DNA of 36,378 nt from Promethearchaeati archaeon (GTDB taxonomy: Archaea; Asgardarchaeota; Njordarchaeia; Njordarchaeales; Njordarchaeaceae). The DNA is taken from assembly GCA_026993975.1 (NCBI GenBank), contig JALWRR010000201.1, forward strand, positions 1-36,378, in the 5' to 3' direction. Below are positions 11,159 through 36,097 of this stretch, one piece after another. Under the pieces are notes generated by a model, which worked only from the letters and a program-made list of their open reading frames with translations, searched no databases and was not told where the DNA came from. A program made the translations under genes and the position numbers. The stretch's first letter is position 1. Every line of letters begins with the position of its first letter.

Positions 11159-13714
11159 TCACTCCCGCTTCTTAATGAAGATTCCTCCAACAATTATCAC
11201 AACTAGAGCTATACCAATAAGAAGCACAAGCACTCTCGGTACTTTCGGTGTGGGAGCTGTTCCTCCACCGCCAGGAGCAGGAGTTACAGCAGAGACTAAT
11301 TCTAGTATCGCTTGAGAGAATGTTTGAACGAATTGACTTGATGATGATTCCTGAAGCATTCTTACGCCAGCAGCATAGAACATTCCTCCCTCCGAGGTCT
11401 CATTTTCTCCCTTCCCGGGTCTAGTTCCCTTTTCCATCTCGTATGGTCCGAAATCATAGATAACTATTGTTGGATTAGATAATAATTCGAATGAACCAGA
11501 AGCCTCTATGTTTAATTCATACTCCACAATAATCGTGCTATTTACAGGTAGATCTATAGGGTTCTCCTTGTTACCAATAACAACGTAAGTGATACCGATC
11601 TTATCATTAGTTACTGCGCCGTAACCAGTTGTTAGAGCGGTACCGTTAATAACTACATTTCCTGCGAATGATACTTGTGAAGCGTTCCAGTAATCAATTA
11701 TGTGAATTATTGTTGTGTTTAAATCACCCACATTACTGATCTCTAAGTGAACCTTGATTTTTCCAGTAGTGTTATCAATAGTCAAGGTCTTGTTGACAGA
11801 GATTTCTGCATGAAGCAATGGATACCTAAAGATTCTTCCTCTCAATCTAGCAGGTGGCAAAACGAACATTGAATACAAGTTGGAAGCTATTGGACCAGCT
11901 TTAAACTCAGATATTCCTGATGTAGTGAAGTTCTTTGTGAAACCATCATAATAAACTATTGCCCCAACGAAATGTAGTCCTGGCTTAGTCCTAACTTCGT
12001 AAGTTGTTCTTCTCTCATAACTGTATCCGCTCTCAAAATAGTCATTGATTTGATCCACATGGAAAGTATCTAGTATATCCATATCTATTATGTTACCATA
12101 CTCATCTAGTATTCCATGAATCACTTGTACACTTATGTTCTTAGCTGGCAGAGCACCAAAGTTAGTTAAATTGGTTACTACTGTAACAGTCTTACCTACT
12201 TCGACGAAGCTCTTGCCAGTAGGTGTCTCTACATGGACTTGGGGAATCAGGAATGTTCCATTGCAGCTTAATGGGTAGAAGAAACCATTAGCAACAATAC
12301 TATATTTTACACCAGCATTATCTGTGTAAACGACTATAGGTCCAAAGTTAAATGGTAGTAACTTATCACCTATAAGCGATGGATTAAAGTTCAAAGTCAT
12401 TTCTCTAATAGCGGTATCTCCAGGTCCCAATAAACCTATCTTTGTTCTTAACATGTATCTTGTTCCATGAGGGCCTCTCACTTGATCTAGTTCCCAATCT
12501 TTCGGTAAAAAGTAATTATTCTTTATTAACCACGATATCGTGTCATAAGCGTCTTTGTCTAGTGGTATTATAGCTCTAACTCTCTTAGCTACCGCAGAAC
12601 CATTATTTGTTACCTCTAATTTAAGAGTTAGGTACGTATTCGGGCTTATTGGATATGGTTCAGCAGTGAATTTAGCTTGAAGCACAGGGAATTTATTCAT
12701 TCTTTCCGAGTAATTATAGGGCTTGAACTTAATTACTACGTCATCTAGCGTACTTGGCCAATTGTATTCCCAGCTACCATCTAAGGCTTTTGCGTGAAGT
12801 ATGTATTGATAATAACCAGTGATTCCAGGGAATGAGCTATTGGTTGGCGTGCTAGCGTTTCTATCTAAGATAACAGGGAAAGGTATCTTTACCTCAATCG
12901 TGCTCCACATTGAATCCTCTGACCAACTTATTTCCCCAGTATGCTGAAATATGTGATTGATCGATATAATATATTGCTCTGAAGTATCATTATAAGTCAC
13001 TGCATTCTCAGCGATGAATGCTGCTCCTACAACTGGAATCAATTCATTCCTGTTTCCATTCTTGTTCAAATCATCTTTATCTCTTCCAATAACAAGCATC
13101 AATCTAGCGTAGGGCGAATCTAAGATAGCATCATAGGTTACTAGACCCATAAGTCCTTCTGATCCCAAAATGTTCTTGAATGTGTTCTGGAAGAACAAGT
13201 CAAAGTCCGTATCATTCATTATCGCGTAGAACTGAAGAGTAACCATATTATTCTTGAACTCTTCCCAGATAACATGATAAGTTAATCCATATGCTGAACC
13301 AATAATATTAGCGGCTCTAAATGCATCAGCAATAGCGTCTTCCTCACCATAACCCGCTCCAGCCTGATACTGCAATATTAATGAAGCTCCTGGAGGTATC
13401 TCCCAGACAGGTCTATGAATGTAATGAGTCCAGTCAAATCCCTTTCCAAACGATAGAACTACGAGATTTATTCTACTGAACGCTGGATCATTTATATCGA
13501 ATCCTATTGTAGTGTTGCCTCCGATTCTAACAGCTATAGCAGCCATCGCCTTATTCTTCCCCCATAATAACTGTATGCCCTCCGCGTAAGCATTATAGTT
13601 CAGCGTGTTATTCTCTTGCGCCCGAAGAGGCTGAATCGTTATCGGGGTTGTTGAATTTAAAATCAGGAATGCGATAGCAAAGGCTATCGCGATCTTACCT
13701 GCATTCTTAAGCAA
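11159..13714 (-). CDS. Large secreted, membrane-anchored surface glycoprotein
   Basis: Predicted extracellular protein of about 851 residues. It has a basic start and hydrophobic signal (GKIAIAFAIAFLILNS) ending near an alanine-glutamine site, a long beta-rich ectodomain, a proline/glycine/threonine linker near the C-terminus, one membrane helix (VLVLLIGIALVVIIVGGIFI) and a KKRE cytoplasmic tail. The first about 280 residues are not assigned but resemble a DOMON-like beta-sandwich. At least three CARDB/Ig-like repeats follow, with motifs such as LEVTNNGSAVAKRV, VVTNLTNFGALPAKNI and LEISNVGDLNTT. Many N-x-S/T sequons suggest heavy N-glycosylation. TTG at 13714 is preferred as start, five bases after GGTGA (13720-13724); an ATG four codons upstream (13726) is the alternative. 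Ligand and role are unknown. Confidence 0.75.
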   Translation of the reverse strand: MLKNAGKIAIAFAIAFLILNSTTPITIQPLRAQENNTLNYNAYAEGIQLLWGKNKAMAAIAVRIGGNTTIGFDINDPAFSRINLVVLSFGKGFDWTHYIHRPVWEIPPGASLILQYQAGAGYGEEDAIADAFRAANIIGSAYGLTYHVIWEEFKNNMVTLQFYAIMNDTDFDLFFQNTFKNILGSEGLMGLVTYDAILDSPYARLMLVIGRDKDDLNKNGNRNELIPVVGAAFIAENAVTYNDTSEQYIISINHIFQHTGEISWSEDSMWSTIEVKIPFPVILDRNASTPTNSSFPGITGYYQYILHAKALDGSWEYNWPSTLDDVVIKFKPYNYSERMNKFPVLQAKFTAEPYPISPNTYLTLKLEVTNNGSAVAKRVRAIIPLDKDAYDTISWLIKNNYFLPKDWELDQVRGPHGTRYMLRTKIGLLGPGDTAIREMTLNFNPSLIGDKLLPFNFGPIVVYTDNAGVKYSIVANGFFYPLSCNGTFLIPQVHVETPTGKSFVEVGKTVTVVTNLTNFGALPAKNISVQVIHGILDEYGNIIDMDILDTFHVDQINDYFESGYSYERRTTYEVRTKPGLHFVGAIVYYDGFTKNFTTSGISEFKAGPIASNLYSMFVLPPARLRGRIFRYPLLHAEISVNKTLTIDNTTGKIKVHLEISNVGDLNTTIIHIIDYWNASQVSFAGNVVINGTALTTGYGAVTNDKIGITYVVIGNKENPIDLPVNSTIIVEYELNIEASGSFELLSNPTIVIYDFGPYEMEKGTRPGKGENETSEGGMFYAAGVRMLQESSSSQFVQTFSQAILELVSAVTPAPGGGGTAPTPKVPRVLVLLIGIALVVIIVGGIFIKKRE

Positions 13715-13762
13715 TTTTTTCACCATTTAATTAGATTTATTTATGAGATATGTTTCAATATT

Positions 13763-24537: not shown

Positions 24538-27500
24538 TTATTTACCTATGAATCTTTTTCTCAGGGTTCTCAACTCGTTTTCAATTTCCATAATGTTTTC
24601 CTTCAAAGGATCATCTAGTTTTCCGCGAGTGAGTATTTTTATGTCTTTTAGTGCTTTATACGCTCTATCGAATAGCTCTTTAGCTCTTATAACATTTAGT
24701 TTTTTGGGTGGTAGGGAGGAAACTATAGATATGAAGTCCCTTAGATCCATAATCGATTGATCGAATTGCTTTAGAGAATTCTTGATTCTGCTGTCGAAGA
24801 GGATTAAGCTGCACTTCATGTAAGCAAGCTCTATCGGGTCAAACTTGCCTTCAAGTTCAGCTAGAATGCCTCTACATGCATTCAAGTCCTCTTCTACCTG
24901 TTCTATTCCTAGCTCTGAGAAGAATCTAGCTATTGCTCTACGTAGTCTTAAGTTGAATTCATATGATTTAATCATTGGTCTCTCATCTTCTGATATCTTA
25001 TCACTAATTAACTCTATTGTTTCTATGGCTGTACCTAGTAATTCGTAAAGATCGTTAAACATTGATAATGAGTACCATATTTTTGCGAGAGAGATTGTTG
25101 TCCATGATAAAGAGCCAAAGTAATCAACTGCATCTAATGGGAGTTCTGAGCTTTCCTTGATTTTACTGAAGATATGTATTAGTATATCCTTTAGCACTAA
25201 AGTAGCCTTGTTCAAGAATTCTTCAGGAGATGTAAGATGCTGTTTAAGAATCCTAGTTATCTTCAGTAATATTAGAACAGTTTCTGGTTTCTTCCATTCA
25301 CCACTATCACTTAGAACTGTTTTAAACAATTCTCTCATCTTATTCAGAATATTTATTGCTGATTGGTATTGCGCTGATTCTAGATGAGATCTAAATAAAT
25401 CCTTGAAAGTATCTAAGTAATCCTTCATATTTACGTGCTCTGCTCCGTATTGAGCTATTATGGAGTTAGCTACGCCGATAGCCTTACTCAATATACCAAT
25501 AGCTCTCTCATAATTACTTAACCTCATGTATACCTTTCCAAGCATCTTGAGTATATTGAAATAACTTATCCAGATATCCTTCGCACTAATCCCCATCTTA
25601 ATAAGCATCTCTATATTATCTCTAGCTTCAATTAGTAAGTCCGCGGTCTCTTTCTTATTATTGCTTCTGAGCAAGATTCTAGCTATCTTGGGAGCTACCT
25701 TGATTTTATGAATCATTAGATCGAGAGTACTAGGACTAAAGCTCATAGATTTGCTTAACTCATATATCTCGTTATAATATATAAACGCTTGATTGTAGTT
25801 CTCGCTTGATGCGTAAATATCCCCTATTTTCTCGTAGATTGTGAATAGGTTTTTTAGGACGATCGGGTCGATTATCTTAGGGGTCTGCACGCTTATTAAG
25901 TAGTTTAGGAATTTTAAATGCTCTGATAGCCAGGGGAACTCTCTGGTGAATAGTTCTGAATCAGTTATAATGTCTACTACTAAATCAAGGGTGTTTGAGT
26001 ATGTTCTTAATACTATTATGTCGCGAGGATAACGATTTAAGTAACCTTTGGATTCATCAGCTATCTTCTTAAGGATGCTTAAAGCTTGATTCTTTTCCTC
26101 CTTTAGGAATATGTTAGCCTTTAAGAAAAGAGAATTAAGATATATCCTCTGTAAATCCCGGCCAAAAGGCTCTTCAAGAATTGTTTTATCAATAGATATG
26201 AATTCATTATAATTGCTTTCAAGTGACTTAATATAATCTAATGCTTCATTAATCCTTCCATTAACATATAAGGTTTTACTTAATAATAAATAACAATGCA
26301 TTTTCTCAAGTAAAGTTTCTTGATTTAAGGGTATTCTCTCTATCTTCTCGAGATTAACTCTTATTATACTTAGCGCGTCAGAGAAATGCCCTTTGGCAAA
26401 CAATATCTTAGCTAGTTGTGTTCTAGCCCTTATCTTGTCAAAATCGGTTGATTCAGGATTATCGATCAGCGCTCTATATATCCCTACGGCTTCTTTATCT
26501 AAGCTAATTGACTCAAGTAATTTAGCGTAAAAATGCTTCATTGTGGTGTCTAAATCAATCTTATCAAGAATCCAATTAAGCATTATCACGTTTTCTCTTA
26601 ATTGACCAGTAAAATACAGGTTATTGATGGTTTCTTCAAGAACATTTAGTAATTTTTCTCTAGATATATTACCAAGCACATTTAAATACTGCATTAGCGC
26701 GTAAAAATCGTTTCTCTTTTTGTATTTTCCTAAAAGGAAATCAGTAAACGCATTAATCTCTTCCTCACTAATATCTATGCCCATGCTACTTAAAGCCGAT
26801 ATGAACAAGTTATGTAATCTCCATGCATCATACATCTCTAACTTAGGTTTAACTATGGAGAAAGAAATAATATTATCAACTAGATCCTCACCACTTTCCT
26901 TGTCAAAGAAGCTGCCTAACTCACCAGGATCAAACCAATCAAGTATAGACGCCATGTAAAATATTTTCTTATCTCTATTACTCATCTGATTAACATAATG
27001 CTCAATAATGCGGTTTTCATCTAATTTCTCTTCTCCAGAGATCAGCTTTTCAGCGTAATCAATGATATCCACGCCGCTTCTAGATAATTGATCCAAGTAT
27101 TCTGCATATAATGTTAAGTAAAACGCCTTACCCTTAGTTATCTTAATGGAGTTTTCAACGAACTCCTCAGTAGAAATGCCTAGCCTATTCTCCAAGTACT
27201 TATCTACATCACTTGATTGAAATGGTTGAAGCTGTATCGAAATCAAGTGCTGGGGATTACTCCAAGAATCTGAGTACTTAGACCAATTAATTTTCTCTCT
27301 AGTAGAAACGATGATAAACATTCTACTTGATAAAGCTGCTAGAAGAATGGGTATTAATTCATCATGCAATAAGTCCTTGCTTAAAGAATCAATTATCATA
27401 ACTATTCTAGAATCCTCACTTAGCTCTCTCAACAAGTCCTCCGCTAAAGCTAGAGGTAATAATTGAATTAAATGATAATTTTCAAGTGAATCGAGATCTA

Positions 27501-28020
27501 TCCTATCCTGGAAAGTGAGACTATCCCCATAAATCCTGCGAATTGCTTCTAACACCCTAGAAAGTACTATATACGCGTTACGCTTTTCTTTTCTCGGTCT
27601 AAGAACAGCTCCATCTTTAGCTTCGATGATATCAAGTACTCTCCTATTAATCGTGTCAAGTACAGTATCAAAGTTATTCAACTTTGTATCAAATTTAACG
27701 CTGATTAATCTGCCTAAGGATAAGAGAATATTCATAGCGCTTCTATCGCCTTCAGCATCTAGAGCTATATAGCTTATTCCAGCATCCTTCACAGATGTCT
27801 CTAAGAAATACTTAAGCAACCATGTCTTCCCAATTCCAGCTTGTCCATACACATTTATTATCGGCGAATTACCATTCTTCATATAGAGCTTAAGGAACCC
27901 TTTCAATGCCTCTAGGGCCTCCTTTTGGTTAATAAATTGAGACTCTATTAAATCAAACTTTAGTCTATCTAAGCGATATTCTTCAGCCAATTCTTTCTCC
28001 TTAGTATAGTAAAGTATCAT
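24538..28020 (-). CDS. STAND-type NTPase with TPR-like repeat tail
   Basis: Very large cytoplasmic protein (1160 residues). A P-loop ATPase domain occupies about residues 20-330: Walker A GQAGIGKT at 59-66, Walker B IVMIIDS near 206-212, and a sensor-like IIVSTRE near 236-242. This is the arrangement of STAND/AAA_16 (MalT, NACHT-like) regulators. A winged-helix-like middle region follows (about 340-430, NRDKKIFYMASILDWFDPGEL). From about 490 to the end it is helical with repeated TPR-like units such as KIRARTQLAKILFAKGHFSDALSI and MLGKVYMRLSNYERAIGILSKA. No effector or membrane domain is obvious. Minus-strand TATA-like element at 28057-28065 and GGTGT six bases before the ATG support its own promoter. 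Signalling, defence or cell-biology roles are all open. Confidence 0.7.
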   Translation of the reverse strand: MILYYTKEKELAEEYRLDRLKFDLIESQFINQKEALEALKGFLKLYMKNGNSPIINVYGQAGIGKTWLLKYFLETSVKDAGISYIALDAEGDRSAMNILLSLGRLISVKFDTKLNNFDTVLDTINRRVLDIIEAKDGAVLRPRKEKRNAYIVLSRVLEAIRRIYGDSLTFQDRIDLDSLENYHLIQLLPLALAEDLLRELSEDSRIVMIIDSLSKDLLHDELIPILLAALSSRMFIIVSTREKINWSKYSDSWSNPQHLISIQLQPFQSSDVDKYLENRLGISTEEFVENSIKITKGKAFYLTLYAEYLDQLSRSGVDIIDYAEKLISGEEKLDENRIIEHYVNQMSNRDKKIFYMASILDWFDPGELGSFFDKESGEDLVDNIISFSIVKPKLEMYDAWRLHNLFISALSSMGIDISEEEINAFTDFLLGKYKKRNDFYALMQYLNVLGNISREKLLNVLEETINNLYFTGQLRENVIMLNWILDKIDLDTTMKHFYAKLLESISLDKEAVGIYRALIDNPESTDFDKIRARTQLAKILFAKGHFSDALSIIRVNLEKIERIPLNQETLLEKMHCYLLLSKTLYVNGRINEALDYIKSLESNYNEFISIDKTILEEPFGRDLQRIYLNSLFLKANIFLKEEKNQALSILKKIADESKGYLNRYPRDIIVLRTYSNTLDLVVDIITDSELFTREFPWLSEHLKFLNYLISVQTPKIIDPIVLKNLFTIYEKIGDIYASSENYNQAFIYYNEIYELSKSMSFSPSTLDLMIHKIKVAPKIARILLRSNNKKETADLLIEARDNIEMLIKMGISAKDIWISYFNILKMLGKVYMRLSNYERAIGILSKAIGVANSIIAQYGAEHVNMKDYLDTFKDLFRSHLESAQYQSAINILNKMRELFKTVLSDSGEWKKPETVLILLKITRILKQHLTSPEEFLNKATLVLKDILIHIFSKIKESSELPLDAVDYFGSLSWTTISLAKIWYSLSMFNDLYELLGTAIETIELISDKISEDERPMIKSYEFNLRLRRAIARFFSELGIEQVEEDLNACRGILAELEGKFDPIELAYMKCSLILFDSRIKNSLKQFDQSIMDLRDFISIVSSLPPKKLNVIRAKELFDRAYKALKDIKILTRGKLDDPLKENIMEIENELRTLRKRFIGK

Positions 28021-28186: not shown

Positions 28187-29938
28187 TTACTTAATATTCA
28201 TCTTTTCCTTAAAATAATTAAGAGCCTCAATTATGTAATCCCTAGTTATGAATCCCTTCGCGGACTCGGTCTCAAATATTCTATCCGGAATCCTTAATCC
28301 AGAGATAGAGAATCCCTCTCGCACCTTAAGCCTATACTTCTCCCGATAAATCTCTTCACCAAGTTTCTTTAACTCATCAACACTAAAACTATAACCCAGA
28401 GGTTCTAATGCATCACGAACAAGTTCAGGCTTATAGATACCCCGAGCAAAGAAACACACAACTAAGCTTGATAATATCTGTCTCCAAGATTCCTCTGTAA
28501 CAAGCCTATCTATAAGTTCTTGGGGAGATAGTGTCTCACCAAGTGTCTTTTGATCCAAACTATATCCAGCGTTATCTAAGTGACTGTGTCTAGCCCCTAT
28601 GAGATATCCTATGTGAGCAGCTGGACCAGTATGATACCCAGGCATCTCATTTTTACCGAAAGCTAGAGCGAATTCTTGTCCACCATAGATAGCTGAGCAG
28701 TGATCGATACCCATCGCTAAGTTCTTGTAAAAATCGTTTGGTTGCTCAACGATCAGTTCTATAGCTCTTATATAGTTCTCATAATCACCCCAAGAGAGTT
28801 TTACGATTGTGTCCTTTTCACTAATTATGCCCCTCTCTAATGCCTCAGTGGCCCAAGCCAATGAGACTCCCGTGCTCATTGCATCGAGCCCCATTACCTC
28901 GACAGTCTCAATTAGTTTTAGTAAACCAACAGGATCCTTTATCCCTAGCATTGCCCCAAGGGAATATGTTGGCTCATAATCATAAGACACAAACATTGTT
29001 TTATAGAAATATGGTTCATCAACATACGGTTCTCTCCAGCTTGCTATGTGAATGCATGCTACTGGGCAATGAGCACAAGCAACTCTTCTTCCTAAATAAT
29101 TCTTCGCGAGATTCTCTCCACTTATCTTATCAGCATGCTCGAAGCTAGATTGCTTTAGATTTCTTGTTGGTAAAGCATGTATTTCGTTTAAATGCAATAC
29201 ATTAGCTGGAGTACCTAAGTCATGATACTTCTTCATTACAGGAGATTTAACCGCTCTATCATATATCTCCTTATAAATATCCCTAAAACGAATCTTATCT
29301 TTAACAGGTAACTCAAGCTTTCCAGAAACAACAAGAGCCTTAAGCTTCTTCGAACCAAACACAGCACCAAGACCTAGTCTACCAAAATGACGATAAGTTT
29401 CTGTTATTACACCAGCATAGCGCACTAATTTTTCTCCGGCTCTACCAATTCTCATTATTGTTCTATGTCCAGGAGAGATCTCATTCTCCCGTATTACACG
29501 ACCAACAGTGTAACTAGATCCCATTCCCCAGTAAGCGCTAGCATCTCGGAAATATACTTTATTGCCGTGAATTGCGATATAGATAGGTATCCGTGATTTA
29601 CCCTTAATCACTATAGCTCCATAACCAGCCATTCTTATAGCGATAGCGCTTCTACCACCAGCGTGACTTTCACCAAAATTCCCTGTTAGCGGGCTCTTAA
29701 AAACAGCAACAGTCTTAGACGCTAGAGGATAATATCCGACTAAGGGTCCTACAGCGAAGACTATGACATTCTCTGGACCCAATGGATCAGCTCCTTTAGG
29801 TAGCTCTTCTTTCAATAATTGTACTGCGACCCCAGTTCCTCCTAACCACCTATCGAATAGATCCTCTCGATCCTCTACCCAGTATCTAAGCCGGGTTAAA
29901 TCAATATAAAGGACTCGTCTCAAATACTTATCAACCAT
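28187..29938 (-). CDS. AOR-family tungsten/molybdopterin aldehyde:ferredoxin oxidoreductase
   Basis: Oxidises an aldehyde to the acid and reduces ferredoxin, using bis-pyranopterin tungsten and one [4Fe-4S] cluster. The cluster ligands CAHCPVAC fall at residues 288, 291 and 295, and the fourth is in LVVCFFARG at 495. This is nearly identical spacing to Pyrococcus AOR (288, 291, 295, 494). The N-terminal YIDLT...LGGTGVA and KSPLTGNFGESHAGGR are cofactor-domain signatures. Length is 583 residues. The start is ATG at 29938, two bases after the stop of the polyferredoxin gene, with a GGTGG/GAGTGAGA site overlapping that stop; longer in-frame readings extend into the upstream gene. Subfamily (AOR, FOR, GAPOR or WOR) is not resolved. 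The neighbouring polyferredoxin suggests an AorA/WOR5-like multi-subunit enzyme. Confidence 0.88.
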   Translation of the reverse strand: MVDKYLRRVLYIDLTRLRYWVEDREDLFDRWLGGTGVAVQLLKEELPKGADPLGPENVIVFAVGPLVGYYPLASKTVAVFKSPLTGNFGESHAGGRSAIAIRMAGYGAIVIKGKSRIPIYIAIHGNKVYFRDASAYWGMGSSYTVGRVIRENEISPGHRTIMRIGRAGEKLVRYAGVITETYRHFGRLGLGAVFGSKKLKALVVSGKLELPVKDKIRFRDIYKEIYDRAVKSPVMKKYHDLGTPANVLHLNEIHALPTRNLKQSSFEHADKISGENLAKNYLGRRVACAHCPVACIHIASWREPYVDEPYFYKTMFVSYDYEPTYSLGAMLGIKDPVGLLKLIETVEVMGLDAMSTGVSLAWATEALERGIISEKDTIVKLSWGDYENYIRAIELIVEQPNDFYKNLAMGIDHCSAIYGGQEFALAFGKNEMPGYHTGPAAHIGYLIGARHSHLDNAGYSLDQKTLGETLSPQELIDRLVTEESWRQILSSLVVCFFARGIYKPELVRDALEPLGYSFSVDELKKLGEEIYREKYRLKVREGFSISGLRIPDRIFETESAKGFITRDYIIEALNYFKEKMNIK

Positions 29939-29940
29939 TC

Positions 29941-30345
29941 TCACTCCACCTCTTTTAATGCAATTACTCCATGGGGACAAAAATCAACACAGTATCCACA
30001 GTAAACACATATGATCGGTTTATTCACTGAATCATCCCAGAAAACAGCTCCTATTGGACAAGCATCGACGCATGCGCGGCAGCCAATACACTTATTAGCA
30101 TAAAATATAACTCCGCCGCCCTTCCTAGGAATTAGCGCATCAGTTGGGCATGCTTTAGCGCATGGTGGATCCTTACATGCTCTACAAACTATGACGGAGA
30201 AGCCTCTCTCGAAGCCTCCTAGACTCTTAACATGGATAGCTGCTTTCATTAGTCCTCCAGTTCCAAATCTTCTATTGCACGCGAACATGCATAGTTGGCA
30301 GCCTACACATCTCTCAGCATCTATGACAGCTAATCTTTTAACCAG
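29941..30345 (-). CDS. AorA-like polyferredoxin with four [4Fe-4S] motifs, probable CTG start
   Basis: Electron-transfer subunit of the AOR operon. Read from 30345, the 134-residue protein has sixteen cysteines in four complete motifs, near residues 13/16/19/23 (CVGCQLCMFAC), 54/57/62/66 (CRACKDPPCAKACP), 86/89/92/96 and 113/116/119/123. Starting at the first ATG (30288) would lose three of the four ligands of the first cluster. There is no ATG, GTG or TTG between the in-frame stop and that cluster. CTG at 30345 has GGTGA (30352-30356) six bases upstream, the same spacing as the AMP phosphorylase gene. Similar sixteen-cysteine subunits accompany AOR in Aromatoleum (AorA, which polymerises) and WOR5 in Pyrococcus. 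Its stop precedes the AOR start by two bases. Confidence 0.82.
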   Translation of the reverse strand: MVKRLAVIDAERCVGCQLCMFACNRRFGTGGLMKAAIHVKSLGGFERGFSVIVCRACKDPPCAKACPTDALIPRKGGGVIFYANKCIGCRACVDACPIGAVFWDDSVNKPIICVYCGYCVDFCPHGVIALKEVE

Positions 30346-30356: not shown

Positions 30357-30729
30357 AAAATTTTTTAATAATCCACATAATATAGTTGCATTTTGCATAA
30401 AAGTATTTGCCAATATTTTTTATTGTTTTCTATATTGCTCAATAATTTTTTTAGAGTTTAATTATTGTTTATCTTGTTCACTTTCAAGCTTTCACTAATG
30501 CTAGCCACTGACATAGGTGGCTGATTCTATTAAACTTTATCTCAATGCTAGATTTTTAGTGCTGAATATGCTGAAATTTAAAATTTTTTGCTTATTTTTG
30601 GAAAAATTTCATGTTAGAGTTGGGTGCAATATTTATTGTTAAGGTTTTTATTGATGGAATTACTAAGTCATCAATCAAAGGTATATGACTCATAGCATCA
30701 AATTAATTATTTTCCGAAGGTAAAGTGTG
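30346..30729. promoter_or_regulatory. Divergent spacer between the AOR operon and the coiled-coil gene
   Basis: No gene seen. Minus-strand TATA-like elements around 30397-30403 and 30376-30385 could serve the polyferredoxin-AOR operon. A 6-bp hairpin AGCCAC/GTGGCT is at 30503-30522. A 7-bp inverted repeat ATTGATG...CATCAAT (30650-30675, 12-base gap) lies directly upstream of a plus-strand TATA-like TATATGA (30682-30688). That predicts a start near 30711, about 19 bases before the coiled-coil gene. The inverted repeat is well placed for a regulator. Confidence 0.4.
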
Positions 30730-33700
30730 ATGAAAAGGAGTTTGCTTGATTATATTCAATACTACACAAAGCTCGATGAGAGAACCATTAAATATTATCT
30801 AGATCTACTTGATCAAAGAATCATTTCCAAGGAGTTCTTCAAATATTACGTGAATGAGCACTCGCTTCTTAATTTTGAGAAATGGCTCACTGACAAGGAT
30901 CTAATAATTCAGATTCAAAATGGTTACTTGGTTCTTCCTCCAATATCTGCTTTAATAACTGGGTTAGTTAAGCTGAGGGATAGTTTAAAGTCCTTTAATA
31001 AAGCCTATTTAGATGCATTCAATGAATCAATTCAATCGCTCAAGAAAGATTTATTGAGCATAGATATTGCTTCTGGGGACGAGATTAACATAATTACTGC
31101 ATATAGAGATCTTTTCGAGAAAGCAATTACAGGGCTAAAGAATCACACTAAGAGTATTCAAGATGTTCTTAATTATTATAATGCAGTGTTAAAGCGAATA
31201 TCATTGACTCTGAATGAATTATCTACTATGATGAGTAAATTTAATGGTAGGATTCTAAGTGTTGAAGATAAGATAGGAGAGCTAGAGGGATTAATTAAAG
31301 AGAAGAGAGATTTGATTTCTAGTGAAATAAAAAGGCTGGATGAAGTGCTTCATGGAATTGAGAGCGATGTAATTAATTTTGTGAATGAATTCAAGAATAC
31401 AGCTGAATCATCAACAAGCAGTATAATGAAATTAGTACAAGAGCAGATCGATCTAATCAATAAGCTGAAGGAAGACTTCTCTAGATCAGCTAAAATACTT
31501 ATTGATAAGAAAGATGAGTTCGAAAAAAGTCTCGATGAAGTGTCTCAAACGTTACTAGAGAAGCGTGAGGAGATCAAAGCTATATTGAAAGAGATAAAAA
31601 GTAATGTTGATGACATAATACATAGCGAGGTCAATGATTCACTAAAAACAATGAAGGATACGCTTGAGATGATGAGTAGTGAGACATTAAGGATCTTTAA
31701 TGATAATCTCCAGAAGATTACTAAGGATATAACTGATATCAGTGAGGGTTTCTTAAGAGAAATAAATAATGTCTCTGAGAAGCTAAGGAAGAACGGTGAT
31801 GAATTATTACTTATCCAGAAAGAAGTAATCCAGAGAATTAAAGAGGATATAAATAGTTTCATCGAATCCAACTCAGAGAATTTAGATAAAGTGGAGGAGA
31901 ATGTCTTAGAAAGGGTTAATGAGATAGTTAATGTGAGTGAATCATTAATAAAACAGATCAGGAATGATTTCGCAGTTATAGATGAGCTATCCTCCAAGCA
32001 AGCAAACTACTTGTCTCAGTTTATTGCTCTACAAGTATCGAACCTTGAGGTTGAGAAAGAGCACTTCATAGTGAACCTCAGAACTCTTCTAAGTAAGGAT
32101 AAGAGAGAAAATACAGGACTAGATATGATTTTCAGTAGATTGAAAGGAGCTATTGGACGGTTAGAGGACTTATATAACTTAAAGGTAAGGCAGATATACA
32201 AGAGTCTTAATGACTTAAAAAAGGAGGGAGAGGAAAAATTATCGAGAATCAGTACTAGCACCATAATGAAAGATATTGAGACAGTAATCGGATATTTCTC
32301 TAATTCTTTGATCAGAATTGAAAGAATTCTTGAATTAATAGAGAGTCTCAGTAATAAGTTAGATTCACGGGCAAGTAAGTTCACTGAGATACCCATTGAA
32401 ACAGGCTTAGAGGAACTAAATAAGCTTCTGAACGGTCTCAGTGAAGAGAATAAAAGCGAAGTCATAAAGCTTTTTAATAAACAGAGGTCTCTGTATCTTA
32501 GTGCCTTGAAGAGCTTTAGAAAGGAGGCTAAGAAAGATCTGGAGCAAGTTATTAGAGAAATAAAAAGCGAATTAGATACTCTTCGGAGCTTAGAGGAAAA
32601 TGCTAGAGCGAGCGTGAGCGGGTTTAGTGATGAATTAAAGAAATCTATCTTAGAGGCCTATGAAACGCTGATTAACGAATACGTGAATCTCTTATACGAG
32701 AGCACTAAAGAGAGCATTATTCAAATGATTTATGACGGTGAAAAAATTCTTGATAGCGAACGGGAGAAAATGAGTGATGCGTATTCTTCCATAATTGACT
32801 CAAAGGAAAAAATAATGGGTGAGCTAGTGAAATTCATTAAGATGTATCATGAGAGAGTTATTAGTGCTTTAAGTGATCTCGGGAAAGAACTACAGGGTTT
32901 TACAGCAAAAGAATTCGCTGAGCTTAGAGACGCTGTAATAAGTAGGATAAATAAATCGATTGATCAATATAGGGTTGAGATCAATAAGCTATCTAATGAC
33001 CTCGAATCACTAATCAAACCTATCAGGAATTACTTAAGCAATCTAAGTTTAGAAACAAACCAGTTTATTGATCGGAGAGTAAGCGAGTTTAACGAGGAAG
33101 TTAAAAAATATGTGGGTGAAATCAAAGAGATAACAAGCAAATATGAAAACAATATGACTTTGCTTAAAAAGAATATGCTAGCTGAGATAAATAATGTCCT
33201 AGAGCAAATTAAAGAGCTAAAGAAAATAGACATAGAGAATCATATCAGAATTTTCAATAAAACCATGGAGAACATTAACAAGTCTCTATCCACCTCTATA
33301 AGCAATACAGTTGATGCCGCTTCTAGTCTCATAGATACATCAATTAATGAGGCATCGAATCTAATAAATCAAGAATACTCCCAATTGATAAACAATACTA
33401 CTAGTGAGCTAAGCAAGCTAATCAATGACACTATATTCTTATTTGAGAATCATTTAACAGAAGCGAATAGAATTAGGGAAGAGATAGATGATGTTAAATC
33501 AAAATGCCTTGATAATACAAATAAACTTGTAAACGAATTAAACAGTATTAATAAAAATATAGATTATGTATCAAAGGAGATAACTGCATCTTATAATGAG
33601 CTAACTGCATTTAACCAAGAGGTAGTAGAGAGACTAAAAGAGTTACTATCTAGTTACCAAGAAGTACTAGGCATGTTATCAGGCTATAAGGAGGAGATGA

Positions 33701-34398
33701 ATTCAAGTAAAAAAGATTTAGAATCAGAAATAAAAAGATTGAGTAAGAGAATAGATGAGTTTAACAATGAGATCATGGGACTTGAGTCAAATAAAGAAAA
33801 AGTAATAGGTGTTCTAAATACCTATGTAGATGCGGTAACAAGACCTATCCAGTACTTAAAAACCACACTAAATAATTTTGAGAGATATTATTCAAGAAAA
33901 ATAAAGAAGAAGGAATCTGACATCTCAAATGAAATATTAGGTTTAATAGATCTTGGTAACTCGCTAATAAGTTTGATTAAGGGTAAATGGAGAGACAGAG
34001 AGCTTATAGGAGAAATTCTTTACGGTAAGAATATTGTGTCTGAATCCATCAAGAGCATGCTTACCTCGGATTCAAGTAATGTGAATATAATAGTACCAAG
34101 CGAAATCGTGAGAAACATACTGGATATAATCAATGGCAATAATAAGAGGGCCAGAACAGTATTGTACACTAATAATACAGATATACTCAGAGAGAGCAAG
34201 ATTAGTAAAAACTTGAAAATTGAGAGGATCAAAGAGGATATCCCATACTTAGTGATTGTTTCAAACGGTGAAAGAGCGATTATATGTGATAAGAATCTTA
34301 ATTACGCAATAGAATTAGTCAATGATGAGTTAATAAGAGAGATATTGTTCACGTGGATTAAAAGCAAGTACGCAAAGAAAATAAAATTTAGAATATAA
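30730..34398 (+). CDS. Giant coiled-coil protein with helix-turn-helix-like N-terminus and PLD-like C-terminus
   Basis: Unrecognised 1222-residue soluble protein with no signal peptide or membrane helix. Residues 1-80 (LLDYIQYYTKLDERTIKYYLDLLDQR ... DLIIQIQNGYLVLPP) look like a winged helix. About residues 85-1080 are almost uninterrupted charged helix with heptad spacing and very few prolines or cysteines, consistent with long coiled coils. The last about 130 residues switch to an alpha/beta domain: NVNIIVPSEIVRNILDII, ARTVLYTNN, YLVIVSNGERAIICD, then a terminal helix. This resembles the catalytically inactive PLD-like sensor of TrmB regulators. ATG at 30730 is chosen; GTG at 30727 is possible. 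It converges with the polyprenol kinase gene, overlapping its stop by 11 bases. Function unknown; the TrmB-like reading is inference. Confidence 0.65.
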   Translation: MKRSLLDYIQYYTKLDERTIKYYLDLLDQRIISKEFFKYYVNEHSLLNFEKWLTDKDLIIQIQNGYLVLPPISALITGLVKLRDSLKSFNKAYLDAFNESIQSLKKDLLSIDIASGDEINIITAYRDLFEKAITGLKNHTKSIQDVLNYYNAVLKRISLTLNELSTMMSKFNGRILSVEDKIGELEGLIKEKRDLISSEIKRLDEVLHGIESDVINFVNEFKNTAESSTSSIMKLVQEQIDLINKLKEDFSRSAKILIDKKDEFEKSLDEVSQTLLEKREEIKAILKEIKSNVDDIIHSEVNDSLKTMKDTLEMMSSETLRIFNDNLQKITKDITDISEGFLREINNVSEKLRKNGDELLLIQKEVIQRIKEDINSFIESNSENLDKVEENVLERVNEIVNVSESLIKQIRNDFAVIDELSSKQANYLSQFIALQVSNLEVEKEHFIVNLRTLLSKDKRENTGLDMIFSRLKGAIGRLEDLYNLKVRQIYKSLNDLKKEGEEKLSRISTSTIMKDIETVIGYFSNSLIRIERILELIESLSNKLDSRASKFTEIPIETGLEELNKLLNGLSEENKSEVIKLFNKQRSLYLSALKSFRKEAKKDLEQVIREIKSELDTLRSLEENARASVSGFSDELKKSILEAYETLINEYVNLLYESTKESIIQMIYDGEKILDSEREKMSDAYSSIIDSKEKIMGELVKFIKMYHERVISALSDLGKELQGFTAKEFAELRDAVISRINKSIDQYRVEINKLSNDLESLIKPIRNYLSNLSLETNQFIDRRVSEFNEEVKKYVGEIKEITSKYENNMTLLKKNMLAEINNVLEQIKELKKIDIENHIRIFNKTMENINKSLSTSISNTVDAASSLIDTSINEASNLINQEYSQLINNTTSELSKLINDTIFLFENHLTEANRIREEIDDVKSKCLDNTNKLVNELNSINKNIDYVSKEITASYNELTAFNQEVVERLKELLSSYQEVLGMLSGYKEEMNSSKKDLESEIKRLSKRIDEFNNEIMGLESNKEKVIGVLNTYVDAVTRPIQYLKTTLNNFERYYSRKIKKKESDISNEILGLIDLGNSLISLIKGKWRDRELIGEILYGKNIVSESIKSMLTSDSSNVNIIVPSEIVRNILDIINGNNKRARTVLYTNNTDILRESKISKNLKIERIKEDIPYLVIVSNGERAIICDKNLNYAIELVNDELIREILFTWIKSKYAKKIKFRI

Positions 34399-35122
34399 TT
34401 GGGAACACGTAGAAGTAGTAGAGCATAGTTACTATAGGAATAAGCAAATTATCAATATCCGCTGGCGATAGTGCCTCAACAATAGTAGCTATAAAAGCTA
34501 TCAATACTATATCACTGATCATAGCAATAAGGCCCGCTGGTCCCCCAATTGGATTGATTATGGATACTAAGATAAGAGACCCAATGATACCGAAAATAAA
34601 CATGCCTAATGACCCCTCAACGCTCTTTTCATTTCCAAGTAATCTGTATTTTCTCTTCCCATAATACTTACCGAACACTGGAGCTAGCCCATCCCCCCAA
34701 CCAAGAATAGCCATAGTAACTACAGCAGAATACTTCATAAAGAAGAATACACCGAGAACATCCATAACTAATGTGAAGAATAACGGTCCCTTCAAAAGCT
34801 CCTTCGGATTTCCTGTTCTCGTCATGGTTTTAACAGCTGTATCCTCAGGAGTAGCCGTGAAGCCCTTAACTAGGAAAAGAATGGTCCATAATAAGGCTAC
34901 GGCAATATTAAATGTGTATGACCAATGCCCACCATAGTAGAGAGGCCAGAAGATAACCCATGATCCAGCGGCGATATGAACTATTTTTCTTGAGATATCT
35001 TGTGGAAAGCCCTTAGAAACCAAGAAATCCATGAATTTAATCACGGACATTATATATATAAAGACTATAACTGTGCATATAGAGTTCCAGATTAATGGAT
35101 TAAGGTTATAGGGTGGTATCAT
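34388..35122 (-). CDS. Polyprenol/phytol-kinase-family membrane protein
   Basis: CTP-dependent isoprenoid-alcohol kinase family (dolichol kinase SEC59, phytol kinase VTE5), 244 residues with about seven hydrophobic helices. Family motifs are SRKIVHIAAGSWVIFWP, GWGDGLAPVFGKYYGKRKY, GNEKSVEGSLGMFIFG and the C-terminal VEALSPADIDNLLIPI. The ATG at 35122 follows a GGTGA that overlaps the stop of isopentenyl phosphate kinase, so the two are co-transcribed. The likely substrate is a C15-C20 or longer prenol, producing the monophosphate for lipid or glycan-carrier synthesis. Bacterial and archaeal members are little studied, so substrate is inferred. A few residues of the coiled-coil gene overlap its 3' end on the opposite strand. 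Confidence 0.85.
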   Translation of the reverse strand: MIPPYNLNPLIWNSICTVIVFIYIMSVIKFMDFLVSKGFPQDISRKIVHIAAGSWVIFWPLYYGGHWSYTFNIAVALLWTILFLVKGFTATPEDTAVKTMTRTGNPKELLKGPLFFTLVMDVLGVFFFMKYSAVVTMAILGWGDGLAPVFGKYYGKRKYRLLGNEKSVEGSLGMFIFGIIGSLILVSIINPIGGPAGLIAMISDIVLIAFIATIVEALSPADIDNLLIPIVTMLYYFYVFPIIF

Positions 35123-35135
35123 TATGATTATTCAC

Positions 35136-35894
35136 CTAAGGAATAAATCTCGTACATACTACTTTTTCTCCCTTTAAATATTTTCTCAATCTACCTTGTT
35201 CAACAAGATTGATAAACGTTACCCTAATCCCAGCATCAAGGATTCTCGAAACCCACTCGAGTTTTCCTCTAATCCCACCAGTAGCATCTCCTTCATAGCG
35301 TATTTTACTCATGATATCCAGTAACTCGCTTCTTTCAACTTTCTCTAAGGTCTCTCCCTGGTAAATTAACCCATCCACATCCATAGTGAATATTACTTCA
35401 TCAGCACCTAATTTCTCAGCTAAGAAATATGCTAGGTAATCACCAGAAGCGATCCTAGGCATTTGCTTAACTCTATCGAAGGGGCCATCAGCAGGAATAA
35501 CTGGAACTACACCAAATCTAAGAAATCTCTCGATGGGCTCTATGAAATAATCCCTTATTTCATCATTCTCTAGAATTATGAATGAGGATGGGTAAAAAGG
35601 GAATGCTGGAATTCCCGAATCAATTAATGATCTCAGAATTCCTTGTGTTAATTCACTCACCCAGTACTTGACGTTAGATATACCAACAAGCTTCTCTAAC
35701 CCTTTTATCTCTACATGTAGGTTCTGTTTTAGAACGAGTGGATGGCCAAATGATCCAGTGCCATGCGTCAATACTATATTTGGGTAACCTGGTTTTACTT
35801 CCTCTCCAACCCTTTTTATTACATTTTCTCTAGCTTTGAGAGGTTCTTTCTTAACTGTTATTGCACTACCACCAATCTTAATAACTCTCAACAT
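35136..35894 (-). CDS. ipk: Isopentenyl phosphate kinase
   Basis: Phosphorylates isopentenyl phosphate to IPP with ATP, the last step of the archaeal alternative mevalonate pathway. This is an amino-acid-kinase fold: VIKIGGSAITVKK for ATP phosphates, then HGTGSFGHP with the catalytic histidine H51 characteristic of IPK, SGDYLAYFLAEKLGADEV, TMDVDGLIY and DATGGIRGKL. Length of 252 residues is normal. The start is ATG at 35894, with GGTGT seven bases upstream; the GTG at 35912 precedes that site. It is first of two genes, with the polyprenol kinase 13 bases downstream. IPK enzymes can also phosphorylate longer prenyl monophosphates, which makes the pairing biochemically sensible. Confidence 0.92.
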   Translation of the reverse strand: MLRVIKIGGSAITVKKEPLKARENVIKRVGEEVKPGYPNIVLTHGTGSFGHPLVLKQNLHVEIKGLEKLVGISNVKYWVSELTQGILRSLIDSGIPAFPFYPSSFIILENDEIRDYFIEPIERFLRFGVVPVIPADGPFDRVKQMPRIASGDYLAYFLAEKLGADEVIFTMDVDGLIYQGETLEKVERSELLDIMSKIRYEGDATGGIRGKLEWVSRILDAGIRVTFINLVEQGRLRKYLKGEKVVCTRFIP

Positions 35895-36097
35895 TTCATT
35901 AACACCAGTCACATTATGCTATGAGAACTCTTAAGCAAAATAATGTTTTAGTTGTCAAGAATTTAGCCTTTCTTCTTTTTAAGTCTTCTATGCAGAGTTA
36001 GAAGTTTAAAAGCAAGCGCAATTATCACTAGTATTACTCTAGCGTTCTTTATCTTAACGTTTTGAAAGATGTTTTAAAGCAGAATGACGTGTAAAAG

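Follow-up and report, generated by a model that had tools for sequence, protein, structure and literature searches.

A giant coiled-coil protein with TrmB-superfamily ends from a Njordarchaeia archaeon, member of an Asgard-wide family of possible intracellular rods

What is a protein that resembles a TrmB-type transcription regulator at both of its ends and has about a thousand residues of coil between them? A gene encoding such a protein lies in the window analysed here, a stretch of 36,378 bases that makes up one entire contig (G000:C201) of a 2.30 Mb MAG in 216 contigs that is 87% complete. The initial annotation read the product as a single stretched regulator and took Thermoproteota as the group to look in, whereas the host belongs to the Njordarchaeia among the Asgard archaea, and NCBI taxonomy places Njordarchaeota within the kingdom Promethearchaeati. 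Features of the gene and its surroundings are collected in Table 1. The ATG at 30730, which yields a product of 1,222 aa, is better placed behind the GAAGGT motif than the GTG at 30727 and, because of that motif, is likely the true start as judged from the sequence, in line with the start given initially.

The gene is a lone transcription unit, with a divergent pair upstream and two convergent genes downstream. The divergent pair (28187-30288, minus strand) encodes an aldehyde ferredoxin oxidoreductase and an overlapping 4Fe-4S ferredoxin. The membrane protein of the nearer convergent gene yielded no Pfam match above the cut-off. Elsewhere on the minus strand, 24538-28020 encodes a protein of 1,160 aa whose N-terminus resembles an AAA_16/STAND ATPase and which also has TPR repeats, for which a PADLOC search was negative, and 11159-13726 is an 855-aa ORF without a Pfam match at E 1e-5.

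Table 1. Features of the giant coiled-coil gene, its neighbours, and a related gene elsewhere in the host genome (window coordinates except in the last line)
Feature	Coordinates	Strand	Basis or remark
Giant TrmB-like coiled-coil protein gene	30727..34398	+	ORF; 1,223 aa from GTG 30727
Shine-Dalgarno-like GAAGGT, 8 nt before ATG 30730	30716..30721	+	By eye, putative
Winged helix, TrmB-type, divergent, residues 1-71	30727..30939	+	Profiles, AlphaFold
Near-continuous coiled coil, residues 73-1089, ~1,017 residues	30943..33993	+	Periodicity, AlphaFold flanks
Mainly hendecad part, residues ~250-900, period 3.6-3.7	31474..33426	+	Periodicity
Coil island, residues 644-680, at least 60% identical to orthologue	32656..32766	+	Possible contact site
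Second conserved coil island, residues 819-854 (KKIDIENHI)	33181..33288	+	Orthologue alignment
Pro765, kept in orthologue	33019..33021	+	Possible kink
Pro1040, kept in orthologue	33844..33846	+	Possible kink
PLD-like alpha/beta domain, TrmBL2 type, residues 1096-1215	34012..34371	+	Profiles, AlphaFold, Foldseek
Polytopic membrane protein, convergent neighbour	34388..35122	-	Dolichol/phytol-kinase-type enzyme likeness by eye
Amino-acid-kinase-family gene	35136..35912	-	Isopentenyl phosphate kinase-like by eye
Cys4 protein gene in host genome (G000:C80)	L065:9695-10576	-

Searched alone, the N-terminus of the window protein had no Pfam match, and its C-terminus reached only 19.2 bits (E 8e-4) against PF11495, Regulator_TrmB, below the cut-off of 22.2, with the match stopping at profile position 122 of 233, i.e., within the first half. 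As a result, we collected relatives from the genus, the order, and the phylum, aligned them, and built profiles of the two end domains, including leave-one-family-out profiles from which the window's own family was omitted. With the leave-out profile, the N-terminus of the window protein scored 28.1 bits against 10.1 for the best decoy (E 9e-8 for 1,000 sequences), and the N-terminal family profile matched TrmB 3QPH (E 5e-12) and TrmBL2 (1.5e-7) in the PDB. AlphaFold predicted a winged helix for the N-terminal fragment, leading into one long helix (pLDDT 89.4), in agreement with the winged-helix-like first 80 or so residues noted initially. When this model was searched with Foldseek, winged-helix proteins were matched only weakly (best E 0.07, with 3QPH at rank 13), so the specific link to TrmB at this end rests on sequence, by which the N-terminus can be assigned to the TrmB-type winged helices of the PF01978 kind. 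At the positions of TrmB Tyr50 and Asp51, the alignment, read by eye, has L48 and N49 in the window protein and Ser and Ala in one group of its paralogues (group C, below); the TrmB recognition tyrosine (Y50), taken as a mark of DNA recognition, is thus replaced in the window protein. The winged helix has a net charge of +3, a quantity that is uninformative as a criterion of DNA binding.

At the other end, the leave-out profile found the window C-terminus with 20.0 bits (E 2e-5), and the runner-up at 15.1 was itself a PLD-type protein. The C-terminal family profile retrieved TrmBL2 (5BOX, 7e-5) and TrmB (3QPH and 2F5T) from the PDB, and the TrmBL2 entry 5BQT was also among the structures matched by the family profiles. 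For a C-terminal fragment of 175 residues, AlphaFold gave a mean pLDDT of 79.5, rising to 81-94 across the alpha/beta domain that had been described as the last ~130 residues, and the ten top-ranking Foldseek matches of this model were all TrmBL2 or TrmB, rather than a chemoreceptor or an SMC-like domain. These searches support the assignment of both ends to the TrmB superfamily. The idea that the protein keeps both ends of a TrmB regulator is nevertheless only partly right, since the chain ends after the PLD-like domain and the C-terminal sugar-binding subdomain of TrmB is absent, which makes TrmBL2 the template and not the sugar-sensing regulator. Among solved structures, the C-terminal domain is most closely related to TrmBL2, an archaeal chromatin protein, rather than to the sugar sensor. 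The last 150 residues contain no histidine, and the PLD catalytic motif HxK(x)4D is consequently lacking.

Between the two ends, hydrophobic residues recur with a period of 3.64-3.66, about 28 s.d. above shuffled sequences. In 100-residue windows, a hendecad repeat (11/3) prevails across roughly residues 250-900, and the period comes nearer to heptad (~3.5-3.6) only near residues 100-250 and 900-1050. The initial description of about 1,000 residues of charged heptad helix was right as to a near-continuous coil, poor in proline (three in the 956 residues of the coil middle) and charged (net -30 in the middle), and wrong as to the repeat, which is mostly hendecad (period ~3.66). The great expansion that it saw relative to a TrmB-type coil is borne out against the short helix of TrmBL2. 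At 0.15 nm per residue, ~1,000 residues of uninterrupted helix would come, by arithmetic, to ~150 nm; bends or breaks in the rod are possible at the two prolines in Table 1 and near residues 441-454, where the coil is weak. No transmembrane segment was found (the highest 19-residue Kyte-Doolittle mean is 1.45), which agrees with the proposed cytoplasmic location. An extracellular stalk was rejected in view of the lack of such a segment, the winged helix coming first, and the lack of sequon enrichment (16 sequons vs. 14 +/- 3 in shuffles). Profile matches to ATG17, SMC, ASRP, ZorA, SpiroCoCo, and apolipoprotein were put down to shared periodicity and discarded because they were confined to the coil, those from Pfam and NCBIfam all being below curated cut-offs.

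The protein is not the single stretched regulator that it first seemed. As a full-length query it found no match in the named genomes because its coil sequence is not conserved. The C-terminal profile found matches (E <= 1e-6) in 99/99 sampled Asgard genomes; the sample comprised genomes at least 85% complete, and the 45 with at least 90% completeness and at most 5% contamination were all positive. The genomes surveyed for relatives are MAGs and incomplete. Among the matches listed, most open frames span 450-1,916 residues. For 21 further proteins from 15 genomes, the full sequence was analysed: all except one also carry the winged helix. Their coils have a period of 3.66-3.68 in 17 cases and of 3.54-3.62 in the remaining four. 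Two of these proteins, from one genome, have a PLD-like domain that is not at the very end; the domain order is consistent across the phylum. The largest relatives seen, with the longest coils, have ~1,795-1,916 aa (G025:C26, G050:C14 at L105, and G044:C35 at L106). As a separate observation, several f6 genomes (e.g., G062:C35 and G101:C9) contain repeated ORFs of ~560 aa that match only the second half of PF11495 (about 160-231), that is, its sugar-binding part without the PLD-like half.

The host genome encodes three such proteins: the window protein, one of group B (G000:C80, 1,219 aa), and one of group C (G000:C149, 716 aa), the last being 84% identical to its homologue in Candidatus Njordarchaeota archaeon M288 (JAHQWF010000009.1), on which the placement of the host among the Asgard archaea, in the same genus, rests. 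The window protein sits on a long branch whose placement in the tree has support of 0.4-0.8, and it has only one clear orthologue; we propose that it is a fast-evolving paralogue within the Asgard rod family. The orthologue, in the sister genome G004 (contig C119), is truncated to its last 606 residues, of which 217/591 aligned residues are identical to the window protein, and it is followed by the same two neighbours, whose products are 82% (34388..35122) and 76% (35136..35912) identical between the genomes. On another contig of that genome, of 3.6 kb (G004:C142; L072:882-3464, minus strand), a group B coil with its C-terminal domain shares a reading frame with a cytidylate kinase domain; we set this apparent fusion aside as a possible assembly chimera.

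In two paralogue groups, the sequence of the coil drifts and its length hardly changes. With the second proline of the N-terminal PP motif and a glycine of the C-terminal domain as anchors, the span in group C is exactly 504 residues in all five proteins from two families, even though coil identity drops to 17-20% between the families and is still highest at zero offset. In group B, the span is 1039-1040 in 3/3 members of the genus, with coils ~15% identical, and 997 and 1,001 in the two proteins of a neighbouring family. Between the window protein and its orthologue, coil indels of +14, -6, and -7 nearly cancel. The remaining relatives, among them short ones (388-544 residues), differ in length, so that each paralogue group and lineage has a length of its own. 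Length differences between paralogues showed no pattern of multiples of 11. A span that stays constant at 15-20% coil identity suggests that coil length itself is selected, as would be expected of a fixed-length spacer or rod whose reach matters.

Group B has a further peculiarity. In front of its gene, and often overlapping it by a few bases, lies a gene whose ~285-residue product (Cys4 protein) contains four invariant cysteines and has no Pfam match above the cut-off. The Cys4 protein occurs in 71/99 Asgard genomes, and in at least 26 genomes, by comparison of the tables by eye, its gene lies no more than about 5 kb upstream of a giant coil gene, in the same orientation. From this gene order, the Cys4 protein is a candidate obligate partner of the group B coil protein. 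No Cys4 gene stands beside the window gene, though the host genome carries one (Table 1).

The reading that we favour, tentatively and at somewhat less than an even chance, is that the window protein forms a parallel dimeric rod and serves as a tether or length standard; of the possible partners of its winged-helix end, the chromosome would be the likeliest. The proposal builds on ends homologous to TrmB/TrmBL2, a near-continuous coil of constant length in its paralogues, family members in every sampled Asgard genome, and the lack of a transmembrane segment. A TrmBL2-like ancestor would have become a cytoplasmic structural protein through enormous extension of its dimerisation helix. Two chains would lie side by side in the same direction and form a stiff rod, roughly 100-150 nm long, that carries a pair of winged helices on one tip and a pair of PLD-like domains on the other. 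By analogy with TrmB/TrmBL2, the winged-helix end may bind DNA, or else a chromosome-bound protein, while the PLD-like end would hold a partner at a fixed distance, be it a second protein of this kind or something bound to the membrane or the cytoskeleton. This would make the molecule a tether and length standard, not an ordinary repressor. Counting against this reading are the unconserved recognition tyrosine and the net charge of only +3 on the winged helix, as well as the places where the coil may bend or break. The tethering or nucleoid role suggested initially would fit such an arrangement.

A similar rod could instead serve the cytoskeleton or tether membranes without touching DNA, its winged helix being a protein-protein module as in ESCRT-II. 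We regard this as rather unlikely, though it is the most serious of the alternatives. The lost recognition tyrosine and the low positive charge of the winged helix would suit it, as would the conserved Cys4 partner in group B, which suggests a complex, and one study describes winged helices of archaeal and Asgard ESCRT proteins as acting in protein complexes (PMC10936438). Nevertheless, at both ends the nearest relatives of known structure bind DNA, and no link to ESCRT or actin genes was seen beside the window gene. The consulted passages of the ESCRT literature treat winged-helix and coiled-coil proteins of Asgard and other archaea without mention of TrmB or of these proteins.

It is improbable that the protein is a chromatin coat in the manner of TrmBL2 and uses its coil as a scaffold for oligomerisation, to bridge or bundle DNA. 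TrmBL2 shares the domain order, likewise has no sugar-binding subdomain, and tops the fold search; a coil of 1,000 residues, however, far exceeds what coating needs, the TrmBL2 helix being short, and the strict coil length would be left unexplained. A conventional ligand-responsive transcription regulator whose linker has become elongated, a role that a TrmB-type winged helix combined with a PLD-like domain would suit, is quite improbable: the sugar-binding subdomain is lacking, the recognition tyrosine is not conserved, allosteric signalling across ~1,000 residues is unlikely, and the gene stands as a lone transcription unit rather than in a transporter operon. An SMC-like molecule that folds back at a central hinge so that its ends meet would fit the length, the globular domains at the termini, and weak matches of the coil to SMC profiles, but with those matches confined to the coil, no ATPase domain match, and no recurrent dip or break in the middle of the coil across 39 family members, we give this very little credence. 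An assembly artefact or chance ORF, which a MAG in 216 contigs might raise, is refuted by the orthologue and synteny in the independent MAG G004 and by the consistent domain order across the phylum, leaving it a negligible probability.

Returning to the tethering rod, we offer a wider and more doubtful suggestion: that the Asgard phylum has a hitherto unrecognised, several-member family of set-length intracellular rods with TrmBL2-type ends which, together with the Cys4 protein, might arrange the chromosome with respect to the membrane or cytoskeleton. The organisation of the chromosome and cell interior in Asgard archaea is of interest given their kinship to eukaryotes, and the family supplies concrete candidates, with DNA-binding-type heads on very long rods, usually in several copies, whose length is kept over their sequence; the invariant-cysteine partner of one group adds to these. 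Annotation pipelines would show merely a weak TrmB match or a generic coiled coil. We found no published description of these proteins in the literature on Asgard archaea, coiled coils, and TrmB, subscription papers being mostly outside reach.

Among known systems, TrmBL2, a DNA-stiffening chromatin protein, has no sugar-binding subdomain, whereas TrmB and TrmBL1 carry this additional subdomain (PMC4877046, PMC4158304), its residues in TrmB including Asn305, Gly320, and Glu326 (PMC4158304). The window protein shares with TrmBL2 (Pyrococcus furiosus PF0496; 5BOX, 5BPD, 5BPI, 5BQT) the order of winged helix, helical dimerisation segment, and PLD-like domain. It departs from that tetrameric DNA-coating protein of 264 residues with a short helix in its length, its ~1,000-residue coil, and its unconserved tyrosine. 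Both end domains are also homologous to those of TrmB/TrmBL1 (3QPH, 2F5T; PF01978, PF11495), with 3QPH the best N-terminal profile match, but these are regulators of sugar uptake and metabolism of 338-341 residues with the sugar-binding subdomain that the window protein does not have. ZorA tails, SMC arms, and SpiroCoCo have a long coil in common with it, to which their matches are confined; the window protein has neither the MotA domain and transmembrane segment of a MotA/ExbB- or ZorA-type protein, nor an ATPase Pfam match as in SMC/Rad50, nor the catalytic motif of an active PLD enzyme. A further likeness is to groups B and C of Asgard genomes, which are identical to it in architecture and in their hendecad coil. 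Group B adjoins the Cys4 gene and group C, of ~715 residues, has strong Pfam TrmB matches, whereas the window protein is more divergent and its gene stands alone.
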